DNA from: Acidobacteriota bacterium
GTDB lineage: Bacteria; Acidobacteriota; Terriglobia; Terriglobales; Acidobacteriaceae
DNA: 39,657 nt
Direction of reading: 5' to 3'
Assembly: GCA_021828835.1 (NCBI GenBank)
Contig: JAJZCY010000007.1
Coordinates: 1 to 39,657 of the forward strand
A program made the position numbers and the translations under genes. Shown one piece after another: positions 6,319-32,370 of the stretch; within the stretch, counting starts at the first letter, position 1, and each line of letters starts with the position of its first letter. The notes beneath the pieces are model-generated. The model made no database searches, had not been told where the DNA came from, and saw only the letters and a program-made list of their open reading frames with translations.

Positions 6319-7548
6319 GTGAAGGAAGACCGGAACCAGCTTGTTGGATTAGACGCAGCAACCCCCTCGGATGGAGGTCTGAATCTCTTCGGAGAAGATA
6401 CCAACGCTTTGGTCCGGCAGATGGACGCCCTGGGAGAACCCGCCTTTCGCGGCCGGCAGATCGCTGAAGCTCTTTATTGTCAGCGCGTTGAAGAGCTTTC
6501 TTCGGTTACTACCTTACCAAAATCCCTGCGCGACCGCCTCACTGCCGCCGGGTGGCGGATCGGCCGTCCCACGATCGCCCAGGTCTTTCAATCCACCGAC
6601 GGCACGGAGCGCTACCTGATCCAGTGTCCCGGTCCCCAAGCCGAGACGGTGGAGACCGTCTGGATGCCGGAGGGCGACGGCAGCGAGCTTGCCGACGAGG
6701 AGGAATCTGCTCCCGGCGCCAAGAACAGTGCCCCATCCTCCCCGCGGTCGTTTGCGGATAAGGCGGGAGAGCGCGATCCTCAATCCATCAAGCCCTGGTC
6801 CCGCGCCACCATCTGCGTCTCCAGCCAGATCGGCTGCGCGGTGAACTGCCAGTTCTGCCTGACCGCCAAGCTCGGCTTGCAGCGCAACCTCTCAGCCGGC
6901 GAAATCGCCGGACAGGTACTTGCGGTCTTCGACCGCCAGCAGGTCGAAGTGGGCCGCGACCGCGTGAACCTGGTCTTCATGGGCATGGGCGAGCCCTTCC
7001 TCAACTACGACAACTTCATGGCGGCGGTGCGCCTGCTGGTCAATGAGGTCGGCCTGAGCCCGCAGCGGATGACGGTTTCGACTTCCGGGATCGTGCCCGG
7101 GATCGAACGCTTGGCCGCGGAGCCGCCGGAGATTCGGCCGCGGCTGGCCATCAGCCTGAATGCGCCCAACAACGAAGTGCGCGCCGAGGTGATGCCCATC
7201 AACCGCAAGTGGCCCATCGAGGCCGTAATCGATGCCGTGCGCCAGGTGCGCTTGCGCCCCCGCGAGCGGGTCACCTTCGAGTACGTGCTGCTGGCCGGGG
7301 TCACCGATCAGCCCGAGCATGCGCGCGAAGTGGCGCGGCTGGTGCGACGCACGAACCTGCCGGCCAAGGTGAACCTGATCGCCTGGAATCCGGGCCCCGG
7401 CATTCCCTATGCGATGCCGGATCCAGCCACCATCGAGTCCTTCAAACAGGAGCTGATCGCCAACAGGATCCCCGCGTATCTGCGCAAACCCCGCGGACGG
7501 GACATCTATGCGGCCTGCGGGCAGTTGAAGCGAACGGTGGAAGGGTAG
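6319..7548 (+). CDS. rlmN: 23S rRNA (A2503-C2)/tRNA methyltransferase RlmN, with an internal insertion
   Basis: Radical SAM CAVNCQFC motif, NLVFMGMGEPFLNYDN, RMTVSTSGIVPGI. Confidence 0.92.
   Translation: MKEDRNQLVGLDAATPSDGGLNLFGEDTNALVRQMDALGEPAFRGRQIAEALYCQRVEELSSVTTLPKSLRDRLTAAGWRIGRPTIAQVFQSTDGTERYLIQCPGPQAETVETVWMPEGDGSELADEEESAPGAKNSAPSSPRSFADKAGERDPQSIKPWSRATICVSSQIGCAVNCQFCLTAKLGLQRNLSAGEIAGQVLAVFDRQQVEVGRDRVNLVFMGMGEPFLNYDNFMAAVRLLVNEVGLSPQRMTVSTSGIVPGIERLAAEPPEIRPRLAISLNAPNNEVRAEVMPINRKWPIEAVIDAVRQVRLRPRERVTFEYVLLAGVTDQPEHAREVARLVRRTNLPAKVNLIAWNPGPGIPYAMPDPATIESFKQELIANRIPAYLRKPRGRDIYAACGQLKRTVEG
6728..6770 (+). repeat. Degenerate family A hairpin repeat inside rlmN, in frame
   Basis: GTGCCCCATCCTCCCCGCGGTCGTTTGCGGATAAGGCGGGA aligns with the reverse complement of the repeat at 8520-8563 (GTGCCCCATCCAAGCCGCGCCTTTTGCGGCTTGGGTGGGA). 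Confidence 0.6.
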
Positions 7549-8519: not shown

Positions 8520-8563
8520 TTTCCCACCCAAGCCGCAAAAGGCGCGGCTTGGATGGGGCACCC
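8520..8563 (-). repeat. Repeat family A hairpin (CCAAGCCGC/GCGGCTTGG stem) downstream of queA
   Basis: TTTCCCACCCAAGCCGCAAAAGGCGCGGCTTGGATGGGGCACCC; near-identical copy at 16857. Confidence 0.85.
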
Positions 8564-8645: not shown

Positions 8646-8693
8646 GGTGGTGGTCTCCCAGGTCCGCAAAAAAGCGCGGGACCTGGGCACCCA
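8646..8693 (-). repeat. Repeat family A hairpin just downstream of the queA stop
   Basis: GGTGGTCTCCCAGGTCCGCAAAAAAGCGCGGGACCTGGGCACCC. Confidence 0.85.
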
Positions 8694-8719: not shown

Positions 8720-9796
8720 TCACCGACTGAACATGCAATCCCCGTAGCTGAAGAATCGGTAGCGGGCTTCGACGGCGTGGCGGTAGGCGGCGAGGATGTT
8801 TTCGCGGCCGGCGAAGGCGCTGACCAGCATCATCAGGCTCGATTGCGGCAGGTGGAAGTTGGTGAGCAGGGCGCGCACCAGGCGGAACTCGTAGCCCGGG
8901 GAGATAAAGATCTCCGTGGCGCCTGAGTGGGGTTGCAGGTGGCCGGGCTTGAACTTCTGCGCCACCGACTCCAATGTGCGCACGCTGGTGGTGCCCACGG
9001 CGACGATGCGTCTGTTTTCGTTGGCCGCACGGTTGAGGGTATCGGCGGTGGCGGCGCTGAGCGAATAGCGCTCGCGATGCAGCTTGACCTCGTCCACGCG
9101 CTCGACACGCAGCGGCGCGAAGGTGCCGAGGCCCACGTGGAGCGTTACGGTGGCGATCTCGACGCCGCGCGCTTGGATTGCCTCCAGAACCTGTGGAGTG
9201 AAGTGCAGGCCGGCCGTGGGCGCGGCCACCGAGCCGCGTTCGTGCGCGTAGACGGTCTGGTAGCGCTCGCGGTCGGCGGTCTCATCGGGCCGGTGAATGT
9301 AGCGCGGCAAGGGAATGTGCCCAATGCGGTCGAGAACGGCAAAGAAGTCGTCCACGGGGTGAAACTCGATCAGCCGTTCGCCGTAGAGGCCGCGCTCGAG
9401 CACGTCGGCTTCCAGCAGAATCTCGCCGCTGGGTGCGGGGAAGACCAGCCGCTCGCCGATGGCGACCTTGCGGCCGGGACGGACGAGGGCGCGCCACTGG
9501 TTTTCGCCGGCAGGCTCGGTGAGCATGACTTCGATGCGGCCGGTGGGCTTCTCCTTCTCGCGGCGCAGCGTGCGGCGGGCGAAGAGGCGCGCGGGAATCA
9601 CGCGGCTGTCGTTGAGCACCAGCAGGTCGCCGGGATTGAGCAGGGCGGGGAACTCAGCGAAGGAGCTGTCGCGGAATGCGCCGGTAGCGCGGTCGAGGAC
9701 GAGCATGCGGCTCTGCCCGCGCTGGGCGGGGGGCTGCTGGGCGATCAGCTCTTCGGGGAGATCGAAGTCGAAGTCGGAGACGCGGAGGCCGGTCAT
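8720..9796 (-). CDS. queA: tRNA preQ1(34) S-adenosylmethionine ribosyltransferase-isomerase
   Basis: [69 protein letters not shown]. Confidence 0.97.
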
Positions 9797-9811
9797 GCGC
9801 GGGTCTCCGAG

Positions 9812-9883
9812 ATTCCCTCAGGGGCTAAAGCCCAGCCCATTCTTTGCGGCTTTTGCGACACGACTAAAGTCGTGCCCTGACAC
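9812..9883 (-). repeat. Repeat family C, copy 1: outer stem plus two inner hairpins, just upstream of queA
   Basis: TCAGGG-GCTAAAGCCC...CACGACTAAAGTCGTG-CCCTGA; second copy at 20962-21032. Confidence 0.8.
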
Positions 9884-10634: not shown

Positions 10635-10677
10635 TCAGGGTTGATTGTAGCGGAGGGGTTGGCAGGACGCGGAGGGA

Positions 10678-10717
10678 GGTGGTCTCCCCGGTCTCAGAAG
10701 CGAGACCGGGGGCACGC
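10678..10717 (-). repeat. Repeat family A hairpin just downstream of the ABC permease
   Basis: GGTGGTCTCCCCGGTCTCAGAAGCGAGACCGGGGGCACG; shares GGTGGTCTCCC edge with the 8646 copy. Confidence 0.85.
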
Positions 10718-14741: not shown

Positions 14742-15464
14742 TCATTCACTACTCTCCAGGCGCGCCAGCATGCGGCTGCGCTCGGCGGCGAGGACATCCT
14801 TTGCCGGGCCGAGCGCGATCTGGCGGCCTTCCTGCAACAACAGCACCTCGGACTCGGTGGCCAGCGCATCCGTGACGTCGTGGGTTGCCAGCACGGCTTG
14901 CACGCGGTGGGCGCGCAGCCATTGTTGCAGCCGCGCCAGCATTGCGTCGCTGGCGACGCCGTCGAGGGCGGAGAAGGGCTCATCGAGCAGCAGCAACTCG
15001 GGGGTGCGCGCCAGCGCCCGGGCGAGCGCGATGCGTTGCGCCTGTCCGCCGGATAAATGCTGGGGGCGGCGATCGGCGAGATCTTCCGCGTCGACAAGGG
15101 CCAACATTTGGCGGACGCGCTCGGCGCGTGCGGCGCGGTCGAGATGGCGCAGGCCGAAGGCGACGTTCTCGGTCACGCTGAGGTGAGGGAAGAGCGCGGG
15201 ATGCTGGGTGACGAAGGCGCTGGCACGCTGGCCGGGCACGATCCATAGTTTTTGCCCCGTGTCGGTCAGCAGGCGATCGCGGAACTGGACGCGGGCCTGC
15301 ACCTGCTCGCCGGGTCGGCTGCGGTCGAGGCCGGCGAGGATGCGCAGCAGCGTGCTTTTGCCGGCGCCGGAGGGACCGAAGATCACTGTCCACGGGGACG
15401 CCAGGCGGCACTCCACCTTCAGGTGGAAGCTGCCGCGGCGGGCATCGATGGCAAGCTCAAGCAC
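14742..15464 (-). CDS. modC: Molybdate ABC transporter ATP-binding protein (ModC-like)
   Basis: GPSGAGKSTLLRILAGL, LSGGQAQRIALARALA, LLLDEPFSALD; overlaps modB. Confidence 0.85.
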   Translation of the reverse strand: MLELAIDARRGSFHLKVECRLASPWTVIFGPSGAGKSTLLRILAGLDRSRPGEQVQARVQFRDRLLTDTGQKLWIVPGQRASAFVTQHPALFPHLSVTENVAFGLRHLDRAARAERVRQMLALVDAEDLADRRPQHLSGGQAQRIALARALARTPELLLLDEPFSALDGVASDAMLARLQQWLRAHRVQAVLATHDVTDALATESEVLLLQEGRQIALGPAKDVLAAERSRMLARLESSE

Positions 15465-16125
15465 GGCCGGCTCCGCGGGTTTGGGAGCGCGAGTAGAGGA
15501 AGGCGAGTGCCACCACGCTCATGCCCATCAGCACGAGAGCGGTGCGGTCGGCGGCGGCGTAGTCGAAGTTCTCCACCTGGTTGTAGAGCACGATGGAGAG
15601 GGTGCGGGTGGCGCCGGGAATGTCGCCGCCCAGCATGAGGACGACGCCGAATTCGCCCATGGTGTGCAGAAAGCTGAGTACCGCGGCGGTGATGAGCGAG
15701 CGTCTGGCTAGCGGCACGAGCAGATGCAGCACGACACGCAGATGGCCGGCGCCGAGCAGGCGGGCTGCGTCCACGAGGGACGAGTCCACCGAGGCGAAGC
15801 CGGCGACCAGCGGCTGCACGGCGAAGGGCAGACTGTAAATCACCGAGCCGACGACCAGGCCGCTGAAGGAGAAGGCCAGCGGATGGCCGAAGACGGCAAC
15901 GATGGCGCGGCCGAAGACAGTGCGCGGACCGAGCAGCACAAGCAGAAAAAATCCAAGCACCGTAGGCGGCAGGACCAGGGGCAGGGTAGCGACGGCCTCG
16001 ACGGCGGAGCGCCAGCGCGCCCGGCCCAGCACCACCCAGGCGGCCAGCGGCACCGAGAGGGCGAGCAGAATCGCCGTGGTCAGCGCCGAGAGCCGAAGCG
16101 AGAGAAGGAACGCCTGCCAGTCCAT
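15457..16125 (-). CDS. modB: Molybdate ABC transporter permease
   Basis: LPLVLPPTVLGFFLLVLLG, LHTMGEFGVVLMLGGDIPGATRTLSIVLYNQVE. Confidence 0.92.
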   Translation of the reverse strand: MDWQAFLLSLRLSALTTAILLALSVPLAAWVVLGRARWRSAVEAVATLPLVLPPTVLGFFLLVLLGPRTVFGRAIVAVFGHPLAFSFSGLVVGSVIYSLPFAVQPLVAGFASVDSSLVDAARLLGAGHLRVVLHLLVPLARRSLITAAVLSFLHTMGEFGVVLMLGGDIPGATRTLSIVLYNQVENFDYAAADRTALVLMGMSVVALAFLYSRSQTRGAGRA

Positions 16126-16234
16126 GAGGTCGCTTTCAGGGTATCGCGGCGGGGCGTGCTCGGGTGTTGTACGCAGGCGTCGGCGGGGTCCCCGCGAGCC
16201 TGGTTCACGATGTCTGCGATGTGCCCGGTCTGTA

Positions 16235-16268
16235 CCCCCCTCCCCCCCCACCCCCTCCCCCCGGGGGG
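16235..16268 (-). other. Extreme C/G homopolymer tract; predicted G-quadruplex on the modB-sense strand
   Basis: Plus strand CCCCCCTCCCCCCCCACCCCCTCCCCCCGGGGGG. Confidence 0.75.
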
Positions 16269-16330
16269 CTGCCCCACGTCCCGAGGTCTCTTGTTTTCAT
16301 CAGGATAGGCGGTCGATTTCCGGGCTAAAT

Positions 16331-16376
16331 TCTTTGTTTTGAGATGGTTCAGATCTACCGATCTTGAAAACAAAGA
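16331..16376. repeat. Inverted repeat TCTTTGTTTT...AAAACAAAGA
   Basis: 10-bp exact arms with extra nested near-complementarity. Confidence 0.55.
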
Positions 16377-16633
16377 GGTTAGCGTATGCTGCGGGGCAGC
16401 TTCTGGGTGCTCCTGTTCTGAGTATGCACAGAACGGGGAAATTGCTTGCAAATCCGGGGGCGGTAGCTCACAGCGGGCGGACTCGTGTTCGGGAATGGAG
16501 GTGGGATGGACGTTTGTAGGGACTGGTCTGATCGGCCCGAAGTGTTTGGGAGCGCGGTCTCCCGGTTGGACGGATGCCAGATACAGAGGCATTCTCAACG
16601 GGATGAGCTCTCGCATGGGGATACCCGACCCCG

Positions 16634-16739
16634 CTCATCGCGATCAAGCCGCGATGAACAGGGCACAGCCCCAATACTGCGATGAGTGGGCCACCTGCCT
16701 CATCGCGATGAAACTGCGATGACACGGGGCACAGCCCTG
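16634..16739 (-). repeat. Two adjacent family A-like units with CATCGCG-type stems
   Basis: CTCATCGCG-ATCAAGC-CGCGATGAACAGGGCACAGCCC and GTGGGCCACCTGCCTCATCGCGATGAAACTGCGATGACACGGGGCACAGCCC. Confidence 0.65.
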
Positions 16740-16856
16740 AGTGGATGGGTGCCGGCTTTCGGACCGATGAGTGGGCCACCTGCCGCGGTCATCGGCGGTT
16801 TTATCGTGGATGGGTGGGAGAGCACGATTTTTTTTAAGCCTGGCTGGGATTAGCGG

Positions 16857-16899
16857 TTTCCCACCCAAGCCGCAAACGGCGCGGCTTGGATGGGGCACA
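16857..16899 (-). repeat. Repeat family A hairpin, near-identical to the 8520 copy
   Basis: TTTCCCACCCAAGCCGCAAACGGCGCGGCTTGGATGGGGCAC. Confidence 0.85.
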
Positions 16900-16980
16900 A
16901 ATTCATCGTGCGGAACGCTTGGGCGGGCCACCTGCCAGGTTTTGAAGTGCGCCGCGTGGCCGATTGAGTGCAGTGGCCTC

Positions 16981-17220
16981 CCGGGTCTCAAAATCGAGAC
17001 CCGGGGCACCCCGAAGGTAGTGGTTGGGCACGCATCCTCAGATCTGGGCCACCCGCCCTCCCGGATCTCAAAATCGAGACCCGGGGCACCCCAAAGGTAG
17101 TGGTTGGGCACGCATCCTCAGATCCGGGCCACCCGCCCTCCCGGGTCTCAAAATCGAGACCCGGGGCACCCCAAAGGTAGTGGTTGGGCACGCATCCTCA
17201 GATCCGGGCCACCCGCCCCC
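16981..17220 (-). repeat. Three tandem 80-bp units, each with one family A hairpin
   Basis: CCGGGTCTCAAAATCGAGACCCGG recurs at 16981, 17061 and 17141 with exact 80-bp spacing and a handful of substitutions. Confidence 0.97.
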
Positions 17221-17244
17221 GGTGGCGAGGAGCGGAGGCCGCGC

Positions 17245-18489
17245 CTAAATGGAGTAGCTGACCTGGCCGTGGCCCTCGTGGGAGGGCGATCCCTTTTGAG
17301 GAGCCGGCCAGAGGATGGAAACGGCGGTTCCTCGATGACCATCCCGGACAGAGCTTCGTATTCTGATGCTGCCATCGTGCTTGGCGACGATCCCTCGCAC
17401 CACCCACAGCCCGAGGCCGTTGCCTTTTTCGGCCTTGGTCGTGAAGAACGGCTCAAACAGCCGCGAGAGCTGCTCCCGGGGAATGCCCGAGCCGGTGTCG
17501 GCGATGGTGAGGCGTGCGACTCCCGGCTGACGCCTGTCCCTGCGATCCCTGGACCAGTGCAAGGAGACCGCCAGCCGTCCCCCTTTGGGCGTGGCTTCAA
17601 TTGCGTTGAGCAGGAGATTGTCGATGGCCTGCCGAATTTCATCGCCGAAGCCCAGGATGACCATCTGCGGGCGGATGCGGGTGCTGACTTCCAGCCCCGC
17701 CTTGCGAAACTTCTCCTCGAAGATGTGCAGCGACTCCTCGAGAATCTCGGCGAGATCGATTTCTTTCGGAACTCTATCCACCCGGTAATAGGAGAGGCTC
17801 TGCTTTACGATCCTGGAGACGCGGGCCAGCTCGGCGGCGGCGGTATTCACCAGGTTGGTGGTCTCCGCGGGCAGGGCCGAAAAGTTCTGGAGGATGTAGA
17901 GCGCGTTGGTGACGGCTGCGAGAGGATTGTTGATTTCGTGTGCCAGGGAAGCGGCGAGCTGCCCCGCGGCAGCGAGCTTTTCCACCCTGCGAAGGCGCTC
18001 TTCCTGCATGCGGATGGTGCGTTCGTTCTCGCGCAGGGTTGCAATCTGGCTGGCGCTTTCCTGGATCAGGTCGCGCACCCGGTATTGGCGGCGGCGGCTG
18101 CGGATGGCTACTTCCACAGCGCGCACCAGCGTTGCTGTGCCCAGGGGGCGCTCCAGCAGCGTGATTCCGCCGGCCGCGGAGGCGATGGTGTCGAGCAGGC
18201 GCGCGAGCCGCGACTCGCCGCCATGAGTCAGCACGATGAGCGGCAGTTCGGACCAGGAAGGCTGTTTTTGCAGGCGGCCCAGCAACTCTGGAAGTTGCGC
18301 CAGCTCCAGCGCCTCTTCGGTAAGCAGCAGCGCCCCGGCGCCTTCGCCGATGCGGGCGCGCAGATCGCCGGAGCTTTCGCACAGGGTGACGGTAAAGCCG
18401 TGCTCGGCCAGCAAGCCGGCCATTGCGGGGCCGTCGCGGCCCACCGGCGCGAGGATAAGGATCCGTTCGTCGAGTTGGCTATTTCCCAT
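17245..18489 (-). CDS. Sensor histidine kinase with N-terminal pseudo-receiver-like domain
   Basis: LAHEINNPLAAVTNALYIL (H-box), NLLLNAIEATP (N-box), IADTGSGIP, GNGLGLWVVRGI. Confidence 0.9.
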   Translation of the reverse strand: MGNSQLDERILILAPVGRDGPAMAGLLAEHGFTVTLCESSGDLRARIGEGAGALLLTEEALELAQLPELLGRLQKQPSWSELPLIVLTHGGESRLARLLDTIASAAGGITLLERPLGTATLVRAVEVAIRSRRRQYRVRDLIQESASQIATLRENERTIRMQEERLRRVEKLAAAGQLAASLAHEINNPLAAVTNALYILQNFSALPAETTNLVNTAAAELARVSRIVKQSLSYYRVDRVPKEIDLAEILEESLHIFEEKFRKAGLEVSTRIRPQMVILGFGDEIRQAIDNLLLNAIEATPKGGRLAVSLHWSRDRRDRRQPGVARLTIADTGSGIPREQLSRLFEPFFTTKAEKGNGLGLWVVRGIVAKHDGSIRIRSSVRDGHRGTAVSILWPAPQKGSPSHEGHGQVSYSI

Positions 18490-20943: not shown

Positions 20944-20961
20944 GTACGGGCTCCGGAAAGA

Positions 20962-21032
20962 ATTCCTCAGGGGCTAAAGCCCCATCTCTCATTTGTGGCG
21001 TTTACCGCACGACCGAAGTCGTGCCCTGACAC
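20962..21032 (-). repeat. Repeat family C, copy 2, just upstream of modA
   Basis: TCAGGGGCTAAAGCCCC...GCACGACCGAAGTCGTGCCCTGACAC. Confidence 0.8.
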
Positions 21033-29025: not shown

Positions 29026-31055
29026 TTGGAGTGGAAGTGACGCCAGATGGTCTCCGCGGTTTTGCGTGAGACCACGGCGGCCAGCGACTCCGCGGTGGCC
29101 TGCTGCACGTCGCGCAGGCTGCCGAAGTGGGTGAGCAGCCGTTGCCGGGTCTGCGCTCCCACGCCGGGGATGTTGAGCAGCTCGGAGTCGCGGTCGCGCA
29201 TGGCGCGGCGCTGGCGGTGATAGCCCACCGCGAAGCGATGGCTCTCGTCGCGGATCCTCTGCACCAGGTGCAACACGGGCGAGCGGCGGTCGAGCACCAC
29301 CGGCTCTTCCTCGTTTCCGTAGAGGTAGATGATCTCTTCTTTTTTGGCGATGGAGGCCAGAGGCTGGGAGGCGAGGCCCAGCGACTCCAGCGCTTCGGCG
29401 GCGGCGTGCAACTGTCCGAGGCCGCCGTCGATGAGGACCAGGGAAGGCATGGTGGAAGGTTCTTTGCCGCTTTCCGCGTTCGCTCCCCGGCTGTTTTCGA
29501 GGATGCGGCGATAGCGGCGTTCCACGACCTCGCGCATGGATGCGAAATCGTCAACGCCCAGCACGGTCATCACCTTGAACTTGCGATAGGCAGACTTGTT
29601 CATCTTGCCGTCTTCCCACACGACCAGTGAGGCCACGGTCTCCGCGCCCTGAATGTGCGAGATGTCGAAGCACTCGATGCGGCGGGGAAGTTCGGGAAGC
29701 ATGAGGAGATCGGCGAGAGTCTCCTGGATGGCCTTGCGCGAGGGCTCGAGCACGCGGAAGCGCTGGGTATGCGACTGGCGGGCATTCTGGCCGGCGAGGT
29801 CCACGAGCGAGCGCTTCTCGCCGCGCTGGGGAACGGCCAGCTCGACACGATGCCCGGTGCGCTCGGCGAGCAGGTCGGCCAGTGATTCGCGGTCCGCGAA
29901 GTCCACCGGCACCAGGATGGAACGCGGAACGTAGTGCTGGTCGATGTAGAGTTGCTTGAGCAGGGCAGAGAAGACGGCTCCGGGGTTGAAGAGGGGACGA
30001 CGGGGCTCGGCGGCACCCGTGTTCGTGCTTTCCCAGGTCTCAGAATCGAGACCTGGGGTACCCGTGTTTGTGGTTGTGCCTTCCCCGGTCCCCAAAGGCG
30101 AGGGACCGGGGGCACCCGGGGTTCGTTGCTGCGTACTGTCTTCTGATTCCCTCGTGCCCTGGTTCCCCTGATCCCTGTCTTCCATGAACTCGGGGAGATC
30201 TTCCCAGAAGAACTCGCGCCGGTCGACGATTTTGCCGGCGCGCATGTGGAAGAGATTGACGGCCAGGCTGCCGTCCTCGAAGTGATAGCCGAAGACGTCG
30301 GTATCGTCGCTCTGCTCGGCGGTGGCGATGCGCTGTTTTTCCTGAAGCTGGCGGACGGTGGAGAGCTGGTCGCGCAGGCGCGCGGCGGTTTCGAAGCGCT
30401 CGGCCTCGGCGGCGGCCATCATGCGGGTTTCGAGGGTGCGCTCGAGCTCGGCGGCTTTGCCTTCGAGGAGAAGCTGCGCGTCGCGCACCGCCTCGCGGTA
30501 GGCCTCGGGCGTGGTCAGCTCCTCAACGCAGGGGCCCAGGCAGCGATGGATGTAGTACTGCAGGCAGGCGCGGGGATGATAGCGGCTGAGATCCACCTTA
30601 CAGCTCGGGATGAGAAAGCTGCGGTGGATGAGGTCCACGACGCGATAGGCGAGATTGCCGGGAAAGTAAGGGCCGTAGTAGGCGGCGCCGTCCTTGCGCA
30701 GACGGCGGGTGACGAAGACCTTGGGGAAGCGGTCGGTGAGCGTGAGCTTCACGTAGGGGTAGGTCTTGTCGTCGCGCAGCAGGATGTTGAAGCGCGGCTT
30801 GCGCTGCTTGATGAGGTTGTTCTCAAGGGCCAGCGCCTCGTGCTCGTTGGCCACGAGGATGTAGTCGATGTCCACGGCTTCGCGCATCAGCGAGCCGGTT
30901 TTGGCGTTGGCCTGGGAGGCTGCCAGGAGGTAGGAGCGGACGCGGGAGCGCAGGTTCTTGGCCTTGCCGACGTAGATGATCTCGCCCTCAGCGTTCTTGT
31001 AGAGATAGACCCCCGGCTGGGTGGGCAAGTTCCGGATTTTCTCTTGGAGATCCAT
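29010..31055 (-). CDS. uvrC: Excinuclease ABC subunit C with a low-complexity insertion
   Basis: GIY-YIG: LPTQPGVYLYKNAEGEIIYVGKAKNLRSRVRSYL; UvrC domain CFDISHIQGAETVASLVVWEDGKMNKSAYRKFKV; HhH C-terminus. Confidence 0.95.
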   Translation of the reverse strand: MDLQEKIRNLPTQPGVYLYKNAEGEIIYVGKAKNLRSRVRSYLLAASQANAKTGSLMREAVDIDYILVANEHEALALENNLIKQRKPRFNILLRDDKTYPYVKLTLTDRFPKVFVTRRLRKDGAAYYGPYFPGNLAYRVVDLIHRSFLIPSCKVDLSRYHPRACLQYYIHRCLGPCVEELTTPEAYREAVRDAQLLLEGKAAELERTLETRMMAAAEAERFETAARLRDQLSTVRQLQEKQRIATAEQSDDTDVFGYHFEDGSLAVNLFHMRAGKIVDRREFFWEDLPEFMEDRDQGNQGTRESEDSTQQRTPGAPGPSPLGTGEGTTTNTGTPGLDSETWESTNTGAAEPRRPLFNPGAVFSALLKQLYIDQHYVPRSILVPVDFADRESLADLLAERTGHRVELAVPQRGEKRSLVDLAGQNARQSHTQRFRVLEPSRKAIQETLADLLMLPELPRRIECFDISHIQGAETVASLVVWEDGKMNKSAYRKFKVMTVLGVDDFASMREVVERRYRRILENSRGANAESGKEPSTMPSLVLIDGGLGQLHAAAEALESLGLASQPLASIAKKEEIIYLYGNEEEPVVLDRRSPVLHLVQRIRDESHRFAVGYHRQRRAMRDRDSELLNIPGVGAQTRQRLLTHFGSLRDVQQATAESLAAVVSRKTAETIWRHFHSNQTAG
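30029..30117 (-). repeat. Two family A hairpin units in tandem within uvrC, in frame
   Basis: CCCAGGTCTC-AGAATC-GAGACCTGGG (30032-30057) and CCCCGGTCCC-CAAAGGCGA-GGGACCGGGG (30083-30111), each followed by G(G)TACCC/GCACCC. Confidence 0.9.
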
Positions 31056-31331: not shown

Positions 31332-32081
31332 ATGGTCATGCAACGTTTCGGATTCGTAGTTACGGCTGCGGCTCTCACAGTCTTCGGGGTATCAGGCTGC
31401 GCGACCAAGAACTACGTGAAAAACCAGACGGCTCCATTGGTGAATCACGCCGGGCAACTGGACCAGAAGACAGCGCAGAACAGCCGTGAGATTCAGGACG
31501 TAAACCAGCGCGCGCAATCGGGCATTCAGAAGGCGCAAGGCTCCGCCGACCAAGCCGCGCAGAGCGCGCAGAATGCAGCCAACCAGGCTAACCAGGCTCA
31601 GACCGCAGCCAACGATGTGGCCCATCGCGCCGACTCGCTTGAGTCGGTGGTGAAGGGGCTCGACAACTACAAGCAGATGGCGGACGTGACGGTCACCTTC
31701 GGGTTTGACAAGTCGAATCTGACCGCCGATGCCAAGCAGCAGCTCGACAGCTTTGCCAGCCAGATCAGCAACGCGCACAGCTACATTCTCGAAGTCACCG
31801 GCGGGACGGATACCACCGGCCCCGCGCAGTACAACTACATGCTCAGCCAGCGCCGCGCCGATTCGGTGGTGCAGTACCTGGCGGCCAAGTACAACATTCC
31901 GCCGCACCGCTTCTATCTGATCGGCATCGGCAAGGACCAGCAGGTAGCGCCCGACAACACCGCCGCGGGCCGCAAGAAGAATCGCCGGGTTGAGGTGCAG
32001 TTGCTCACGAATATGAGCCAGGGCGGAAGTGGCGCGCAGCCGCAGAGCTCGGCGCCGAGCAATCCTGGCGCCGCCCAGTAG
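31332..32081 (+). CDS. OmpA/Pal-family lipoprotein with coiled-coil-like linker
   Basis: Lipobox VSGC; Ala/Gln-rich region; OmpA-like VTFGFDKSNLTADAKQQLD...YLIGIGKDQQVAPDNTAAGRKKNRRVEV. Confidence 0.88.
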   Translation: MVMQRFGFVVTAAALTVFGVSGCATKNYVKNQTAPLVNHAGQLDQKTAQNSREIQDVNQRAQSGIQKAQGSADQAAQSAQNAANQANQAQTAANDVAHRADSLESVVKGLDNYKQMADVTVTFGFDKSNLTADAKQQLDSFASQISNAHSYILEVTGGTDTTGPAQYNYMLSQRRADSVVQYLAAKYNIPPHRFYLIGIGKDQQVAPDNTAAGRKKNRRVEVQLLTNMSQGGSGAQPQSSAPSNPGAAQ

Positions 32082-32151
32082 CCGGTGAGCACCGGGCAGT
32101 CGGGAACCACCGGGCAGCCGGTAATCTCCGGGTAGCCGGTAACCGCCGGGT
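32080..32151 (+). repeat. Four 18-bp tandem repeats beginning at the stop codon of the OmpA-like gene
   Basis: AGCCGGTGAGCACCGGGC/AGTCGGGAACCACCGGGC/AGCCGGTAATCTCCGGGT/AGCCGGTAACCGCCGGGT. Confidence 0.85.
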
Positions 32152-32167
32152 ATTGTTTACCCAAACC

Positions 32168-32198
32168 AAGGCAGATCCTTACCGGGTCTGCCTTTTTC
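32168..32198 (+). terminator. Terminator of the OmpA-like gene
   Basis: AAGGCAGATCCTTACCGGGTCTGCCTTTTTC. Confidence 0.8.
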
Positions 32199-32217
32199 TT
32201 GGTGGGGGATGGGCGTG

Positions 32218-32277
32218 GGTCTGGAGACCCACGCGACAGCCGGTCTGGAGACCCACGCGACAGCCGGTCTGGAGACC
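32218..32277. repeat. Three GGTCTGGAGACC palindromes at 24-bp spacing
   Basis: GGTCTGGAGACC at 32218, 32242 and 32266 with CACGCGACAGCC linkers. Confidence 0.85.
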
Positions 32278-32370
32278 GGCGCTACAACTGGTTGGCGCTC
32301 CGACGGATTGGGGCTTCGACGGCCTGGCGCGCGTGGCGACGGAGAATGCGAAGCAGACTGAGCGGCTTTG

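Follow-up and report, generated by a model that had tools for sequence, protein, structure and literature searches.

A REP-type palindrome cluster, very probably derived from RAYT elements, between modB and a histidine kinase gene in an Acidobacteriota genome

The window analysed here comprises 39,657 nucleotides of contig JAJZCY010000007.1 from an Acidobacteriota bacterium. Within it, a repeat-rich island lies between modB and a sensor histidine kinase gene, raising the question of what these repeats are and why they are gathered here. The island (16126-17244) fills the gap exactly, with the ATG of modB at 16126 and the stop codon of the kinase at 17245, both genes being encoded on the minus strand (Table 1). 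The closest named relatives of the kinase are from Occallatibacter savannae and an Acidobacteriaceae MAG, which makes Acidobacteriaceae the most likely family for the window. The original prediction, made from the sequence alone, held that the island contains no credible CDS, and this was borne out. An annotated ncRNA, which it had named as possible counter-evidence, was likewise not found, as a search of both strands of the island against Rfam gave no covariance-model match even at E<=1. CRISPR, integron attC and coding readings of the island were dropped on inspection only.

Table 1. Position of repeats and bordering genes in the window.
Feature	Position	Strand	Remarks
REP, single, unit-3 family	8520..8561	+	98% identical to 16857-16898
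REP, CCCAGGTC family	8655..8691	+	Orthologous place in the closest relative (G091) adjoins the 3' end of a RAYT gene
Second repeat family, AGGGGCTAAAGCCC...CACGACTAAAGTCGTGCCCTGACAC	9810..9883; copy 20959-21032		Kind flanking clade IV RAYT genes
REP, CCCCGGTCTC family	10672..10716	+	Conserved in G091
modB, molybdate-type ABC permease	15457..16126	-	Left border, start codon 16126; PF00528 (E 5e-16) and ORF list
Dispersed element, about 220 bp	16236..16458	+	C-tract (G-quadruplex-capable on the minus strand), GGGGGGCTGCC, then inverted repeat 16324-16340 / 16367-16383
REP unit 1	16632..16699	+	CATCGCG-stem hairpin 16635-16657, tag GGGCAC 16661, end motif GTGGGCCACCTGCC 16686-16699; stem also flanks clade I RAYT genes
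REP unit 2	16700..16784	+	CATCGCG-stem hairpin 16700-16722, tag GGGGCAC 16726, end motif 16771-16784
Degenerate remnant, probably an inverted REP	16785..16838	-	CATCGGCGG...GGATGGGTGGGAGAGCACG; sequence inspection
REP unit 3	16857..16936	+	AAGCCGC stem, hairpin TTTCCCACCCAAGCCGC...GGATGGGGCAC, 33-nt spacing, end motif GGGCCACCTGCC 16925-16936; stem also beside the C332 RAYT gene
REP units 4-6	16977..17218	+	Three 80-bp tandems, GGGTCTC stems: hairpin CCCGGGTCTC-loop-GAGACCCGGG, GGGGCACC, spacer, AGATCCGGGCCACCCGCC
Sensor histidine kinase	17245..18489	-	Right border, stop codon 17245; PF02518 / PF00512
REP hairpin CCCCGGTCCCC...GGGACCGGGGGCACCC	30070..30120	+	Further GGTCTC-stem hairpin at 30032-30058

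Rather than a mixture of unrelated repeats, the right 590 bp or so of the island (16632-17218) hold six copies of a single REP-type unit, which comes in several versions. In brief, each unit consists of a hairpin with a variable stem, the tag GGG(G)CAC, a spacer of 29-54 nt, a partial second copy of the 3' arm of the hairpin and the end motif GGGCCACCYGCC. The separate repeats listed in the original prediction are all present, and several of them find their place in this architecture: the two CATCGCG-stem units are the hairpins of units 1 and 2, the near-identical "family A" copy 8 kb away matches the hairpin of unit 3 at 41 of 42 positions, and the three 80-bp tandems, 96-98% identical to each other, are units 4-6. 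The 80-bp array looks like a local expansion of the unit; it should be noted that its count of three comes from a short-read metagenome assembly, in which copies of this length are easily mis-counted. As single-stranded DNA the island hairpins form stable folds (z -2.9 to -4.8). Elsewhere in the window, three short tandem repeats with periods of 18, 24 and 16 neighbour each other between genes at 32078-32330.

All six copies of the recurring motif GGGCCACC[CT]GCC in the window lie within the island, and exact GTGGGCCACCYGCC is found five times in the 3.9 Mb genome versus none for a reversed-pattern control. The end motif lies downstream of 31 non-redundant hairpins at spacings typical of each family, commonly 33, 43, 48 and 53/54 nt. 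The 7 nt preceding it match the 3' arm of the same hairpin at 4.0 of 7 positions, versus 3.0 in shuffled pairs, a value reached in none of 5000 shuffles; this holds in a register moved by one base after the first register showed nothing, and is significant only in the corrected register.

The association of hairpin and tag is more than chance and is strand-polar. A hairpin precedes GGGGCAC at 19 of 55 sites in pieces of the same genome (G000), which were selected for matching the island, and at 18 of 39 sites in a second genome (G004), where the sample is mostly one nearly whole contig, C6, and the remaining pieces surround matches. Nine control 7-mers, the reverse complement of the tag among them, have a hairpin at 0-5% of their sites. 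When strong hairpins were listed without regard to the tag, GGGCAC and GGGGCA were the commonest flanking words, with GGGAGA or GGGAAA on the other side. Over 1.26 Mb, a hairpin was found at 134 of 1009 GGGCAC sites, versus about 0-3% for most other tags. Classified by head, GTGC thus dominates (134/1009), GTGG-CCC is minor (13/303), GTAG-CCC is absent (0/139) and CGTC is at background (1.3%). By a crude ORF call, approximately 71-75% of the tagged hairpins lie outside ORFs, though ORFs cover 83-84% of the sequence, and 9 of 31 and 6 of 24 lie inside ORFs of at least 450 bases.

A search with the whole island gave no matches outside the genus. The frame CCCACCC-N(10-36)-GGATGGGGCAC nonetheless shows that the family extends to further genera and families within the class; it is present in 102 of 299 class genomes, with up to 126 copies in one, and the reversed-pattern control gave no matches in any genome. 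The frame pattern imposes no pairing of the inner arms, yet 35 of the 52 distinct members have complementary arms, versus 0.8 expected and a maximum of four in 1000 shuffles. In the genome studied here, stems with an A.C mismatch outnumber fully paired ones 22 to 2, and the reverse is seen in some genomes. One could argue that unrelated short repeats came together here by chance, or that the island is an artefact of assembly, and the mis-counting to which the 80-bp copies are prone would fit such a reading. We give it almost no credence, and for the unit it is refuted, as the units recur on unlinked contigs and in dozens of genomes while the controls gave counts of zero.

We found Y1_Tnp genes in 58 of the 59 genomes of the genus searched. 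The genome studied here has two with open frames, on contigs C332 and C256, and one fragment. Both open-frame genes lie between inverted copies of tagged hairpins. At the C332 gene, the stem of unit 3 lies on one side, and a unit composed of hairpin, GGGGCAC, 33 nt and GGGCCACCTGCC on the other. The five proteins tested scored 104-122 bits against NF047646, the model of the REP-associated tyrosine transposase (RAYT; cut-off 80), and 32-46 bits against an IS200 model (cut-off 55). Their alignment contains the HVH and YIHRNP motifs, and among solved structures TnpAREP (4er8) comes closest. Two RAYT genes of one genome, L089 and L091, have an in-frame insertion of approximately 14 residues (GSPAHELCALGWK) within the catalytic YIHRNP motif.

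The RAYT clades match the repeat families. A quick tree of 22 loci gave four groups, clade I not being strictly one branch. The C332 gene, whose product has 193 aa, belongs to clade I. Clade I genes are mostly flanked by CATCGCG hairpins, inverted, about 104-137 nt upstream and 153-208 nt downstream, and in the best-preserved clade I loci GGCAGGTGGC / GCCACCTGCC is outermost at both ends. This places GGGCCACCYGCC at the outer end of the element; the original prediction was right about its recurrence, but the role of spacer motif assigned to it did not hold. Clade II has stems of the CCCACCC/CCCGCCC type, and clade III has further stems with less uniform flanks than clade I. Clade IV is without these hairpins and has instead AGGGGCTAAAGCCC...GGCACGACTGAAGTCGTGCCCTGACAC or close variants, the repeat found twice in the window (9810-9883 and 20959-21032). 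Counting only loci not picked for their repeats, a tagged hairpin lies within 400 nt at 8 of 10 clade I-III loci (expected rate 0.036, P about 1e-10) and at none of five clade IV loci. At three places in two species (L235:1-160, on contig C332; L092, downstream of a RAYT gene; the end of L003), ATTGCATGACAGCGTCGGCTCC...ATGATGATTATAGG.TGTGATTTTCATCC is found right after or beside REPs. Its reading frame MMIIGCDFHP points to a putative IS110-type element inserted into REP hairpins.

A link to RAYT transposases is the most economical cause of the island repeats, and one that did not figure in the original prediction. We consider it very probable that the repeats in the right part of the island are clustered REP-type palindromes, namely non-autonomous solo ends of RAYT elements that accumulate and turn over in a non-coding gap. 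A RAYT, a tyrosine transposase of the HUH/Y1 type encoded elsewhere in the genome, would act in trans. In single-stranded DNA, it would recognise the hairpin together with the 5' head, which reads GTGCCC from the tag side; it would then cut, and copy or move the unit to new places. Recombination or replication slippage between adjacent units may then produce tandem arrays such as the 80-bp triplet. Several points count against this explanation: the dominant head is GTGC and not the canonical GTAG/GTGG, the full composite unit is kept in only 31 non-redundant cases among 176 hairpins, some tagged hairpins lie inside ORFs, and the flanks of clade III are less uniform than those of clade I. From the arrangement of the unit we further suggest that its two arms, one headed by GTGG and one by GTGC, could compete for a single 3' partner. 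In an extended form of this idea, which we regard as doubtful, the acidobacterial RAYTs of clades I-III would use GTGC as a third guide class and a switch-like end, the competing arms letting the unit adopt either a short hairpin or a longer one that takes in the spacer; there would be two end states, with the 80-bp array as their product.

The left part of the island is of another kind. The G-quadruplex tract of the original prediction is a G-rich run on the minus strand (a C-tract on the plus strand, at about 16236-16266), and the predicted inverted repeat TCTTTGTTTT is also present, with a DNA fold of -13.3 kcal/mol (z -5.0). Both belong to a dispersed element separate from the REP units. 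A profile search of G000 and G091 sequence, G091 being the closest relative, gave nine copies with E values of 6e-26 to 2e-59 (the window copy, L203, L110, L108, L212, L115, L213, L125 and L116), sharing the motifs GGGGGGCTGCC and TTCTTTGTTTTCA; a stricter DNA pattern matched only the genome studied here. By the crude ORF call, the C-tract end faces the start of a gene pointing away in eight of the nine copies, with about half expected by chance and two of the copies orthologous to each other, so that a position upstream of genes pointing away is suggestive but weak. The genes adjoining the copies were searched for a common function and none was found. Folding and alignment of the element gave no convincing sign of a conserved RNA structure (z -1.4 and -1.8).

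The original prediction proposed comparing the modB-kinase interval between related genomes. G091 is 94% identical at the DNA level over most of the window, but its kinase-modB gap is 315 bp versus 1075 bp here, with no alignable sequence between them. It harbors two REPs of families other than those found here, and the C-tract element is absent. In addition, queA of G091 contains approximately 78 extra bases with a complete REP, inserted in frame such that the 390-aa ORF stays open (window 9496-9511 versus L197:1133-1226); this REP is absent from the window. The site orthologous to the window REP at 8655-8691 is occupied in G091 by the 3' end of a RAYT gene, and a further REP of G091, opposite contig C241 of the genome studied here, is absent from the latter. 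The replaced interval and the absence of the queA REP thus indicate that the repeats turn over, and support a fast-changing accumulation of repeats in the gap. The genomes are mostly metagenome assemblies, and what the comparison shows is presence or absence. Within the island itself, we recovered no insertion whose target-site boundaries are exact. A separate observation is that about 67 bp of the window (6728-6794) align twice to neighbouring places on contig C74 of G091, possibly a local duplication in that genome.

The comparison with G091 also bears on two other readings of the island. The hairpins are stable and sited between two genes on the same strand, as would be expected of functional RNA or transcription elements under selection, such as terminators or mRNA stabilisers. 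We find this very unlikely, since gap length and repeat family differ wholly between genomes that are 94% identical, Rfam gave no matches and the repeats flank transposase genes. The original prediction also raised preferential accumulation at one site, possibly a recombination hotspot. The part concerning a fast-changing, non-coding pile-up stands. A special site is only partly supported, because the repeats occur genome-wide and similar clusters are found elsewhere, on contig C241 of the genome studied here (about 46.6-48.5 kb) and on contig C24 of G091 (about 13.0-13.7 kb). If a local cause, e.g. a fragile G-tract, made this gap a true hotspot of recombination or integration where REPs gather, this would agree with the G-tract element adjoining the REPs and with both relatives having REPs, of different families, in this gap. 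However, REPs prefer gaps in general and the gap of G091 has REPs without the G-tract element, and together with the clusters elsewhere this makes such a hotspot improbable. The solo ends of RAYT elements remain the preferred explanation.

Soils are rich in Acidobacteriota, and the literature we found says little about the intergenic repeats of this phylum. The present analysis gives two searchable signatures, CCCACCC-stem-GGATGGGGCAC and hairpin-GGGGCAC-spacer-GGGCCACCYGCC. Within one genus it also assigns repeat families to four RAYT clades, and close relatives differ at the same sites. RAYT guide recognition and REP turnover are therefore testable outside the Proteobacteria.

Compared to known systems, the island repeats look like a new variety of an already known kind of repeat, and not like a new system. 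As in the REP/REPtron systems with RAYT of E. coli and Pseudomonas, we find short, imperfect palindromes with a polar head and many copies, mostly intergenic, as singletons and clusters, some intragenic. Inverted copies likewise flank a Y1/HUH transposase of NF047646, and the pairing of RAYT and repeat is family-specific. Canonical REPs are defined by GT[AG]G heads, and atypical flanks have been noted in other classes (PMC6006769). The island repeats differ in having the head GTGC, in stems that usually contain an A.C mismatch and vary widely inside an outer frame that is conserved, and in the second arm copy and GTGG-side end motif of the full unit. In complete units GTGG stands before the second arm copy, so we class them as a variant and not as canonical REPs. 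The ends of IS200/IS605 elements similarly have subterminal hairpins and a short guide read in single-stranded DNA, but no complete element was found here and the proteins are below the IS200 cut-off and above that of RAYT. De Nocera 2013 (PMC3733652) describes CGTC REPs as being without a dedicated transposase; these are also short, polar palindromes, whereas CGTC heads are at background in our material and the island repeats are associated with a transposase. The same paper describes TIRtrons, in which inverted repeats flank the RAYT-like TIRYT genes, including an acidobacterial group (Koribacter, Terriglobus, Acidobacterium and Granulicella), with a shared TIR motif GGGGWSAS, and for K. versatilis it reports only the ORF1552 repeats as a repeated family. 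The likeness lies in acidobacterial RAYT-like genes with non-GTAG inverted flanking repeats that also occur singly, as dimers and in clusters. Compared by the motif described there, the island tag GGGGCAC does not fit GGGGWSAS.
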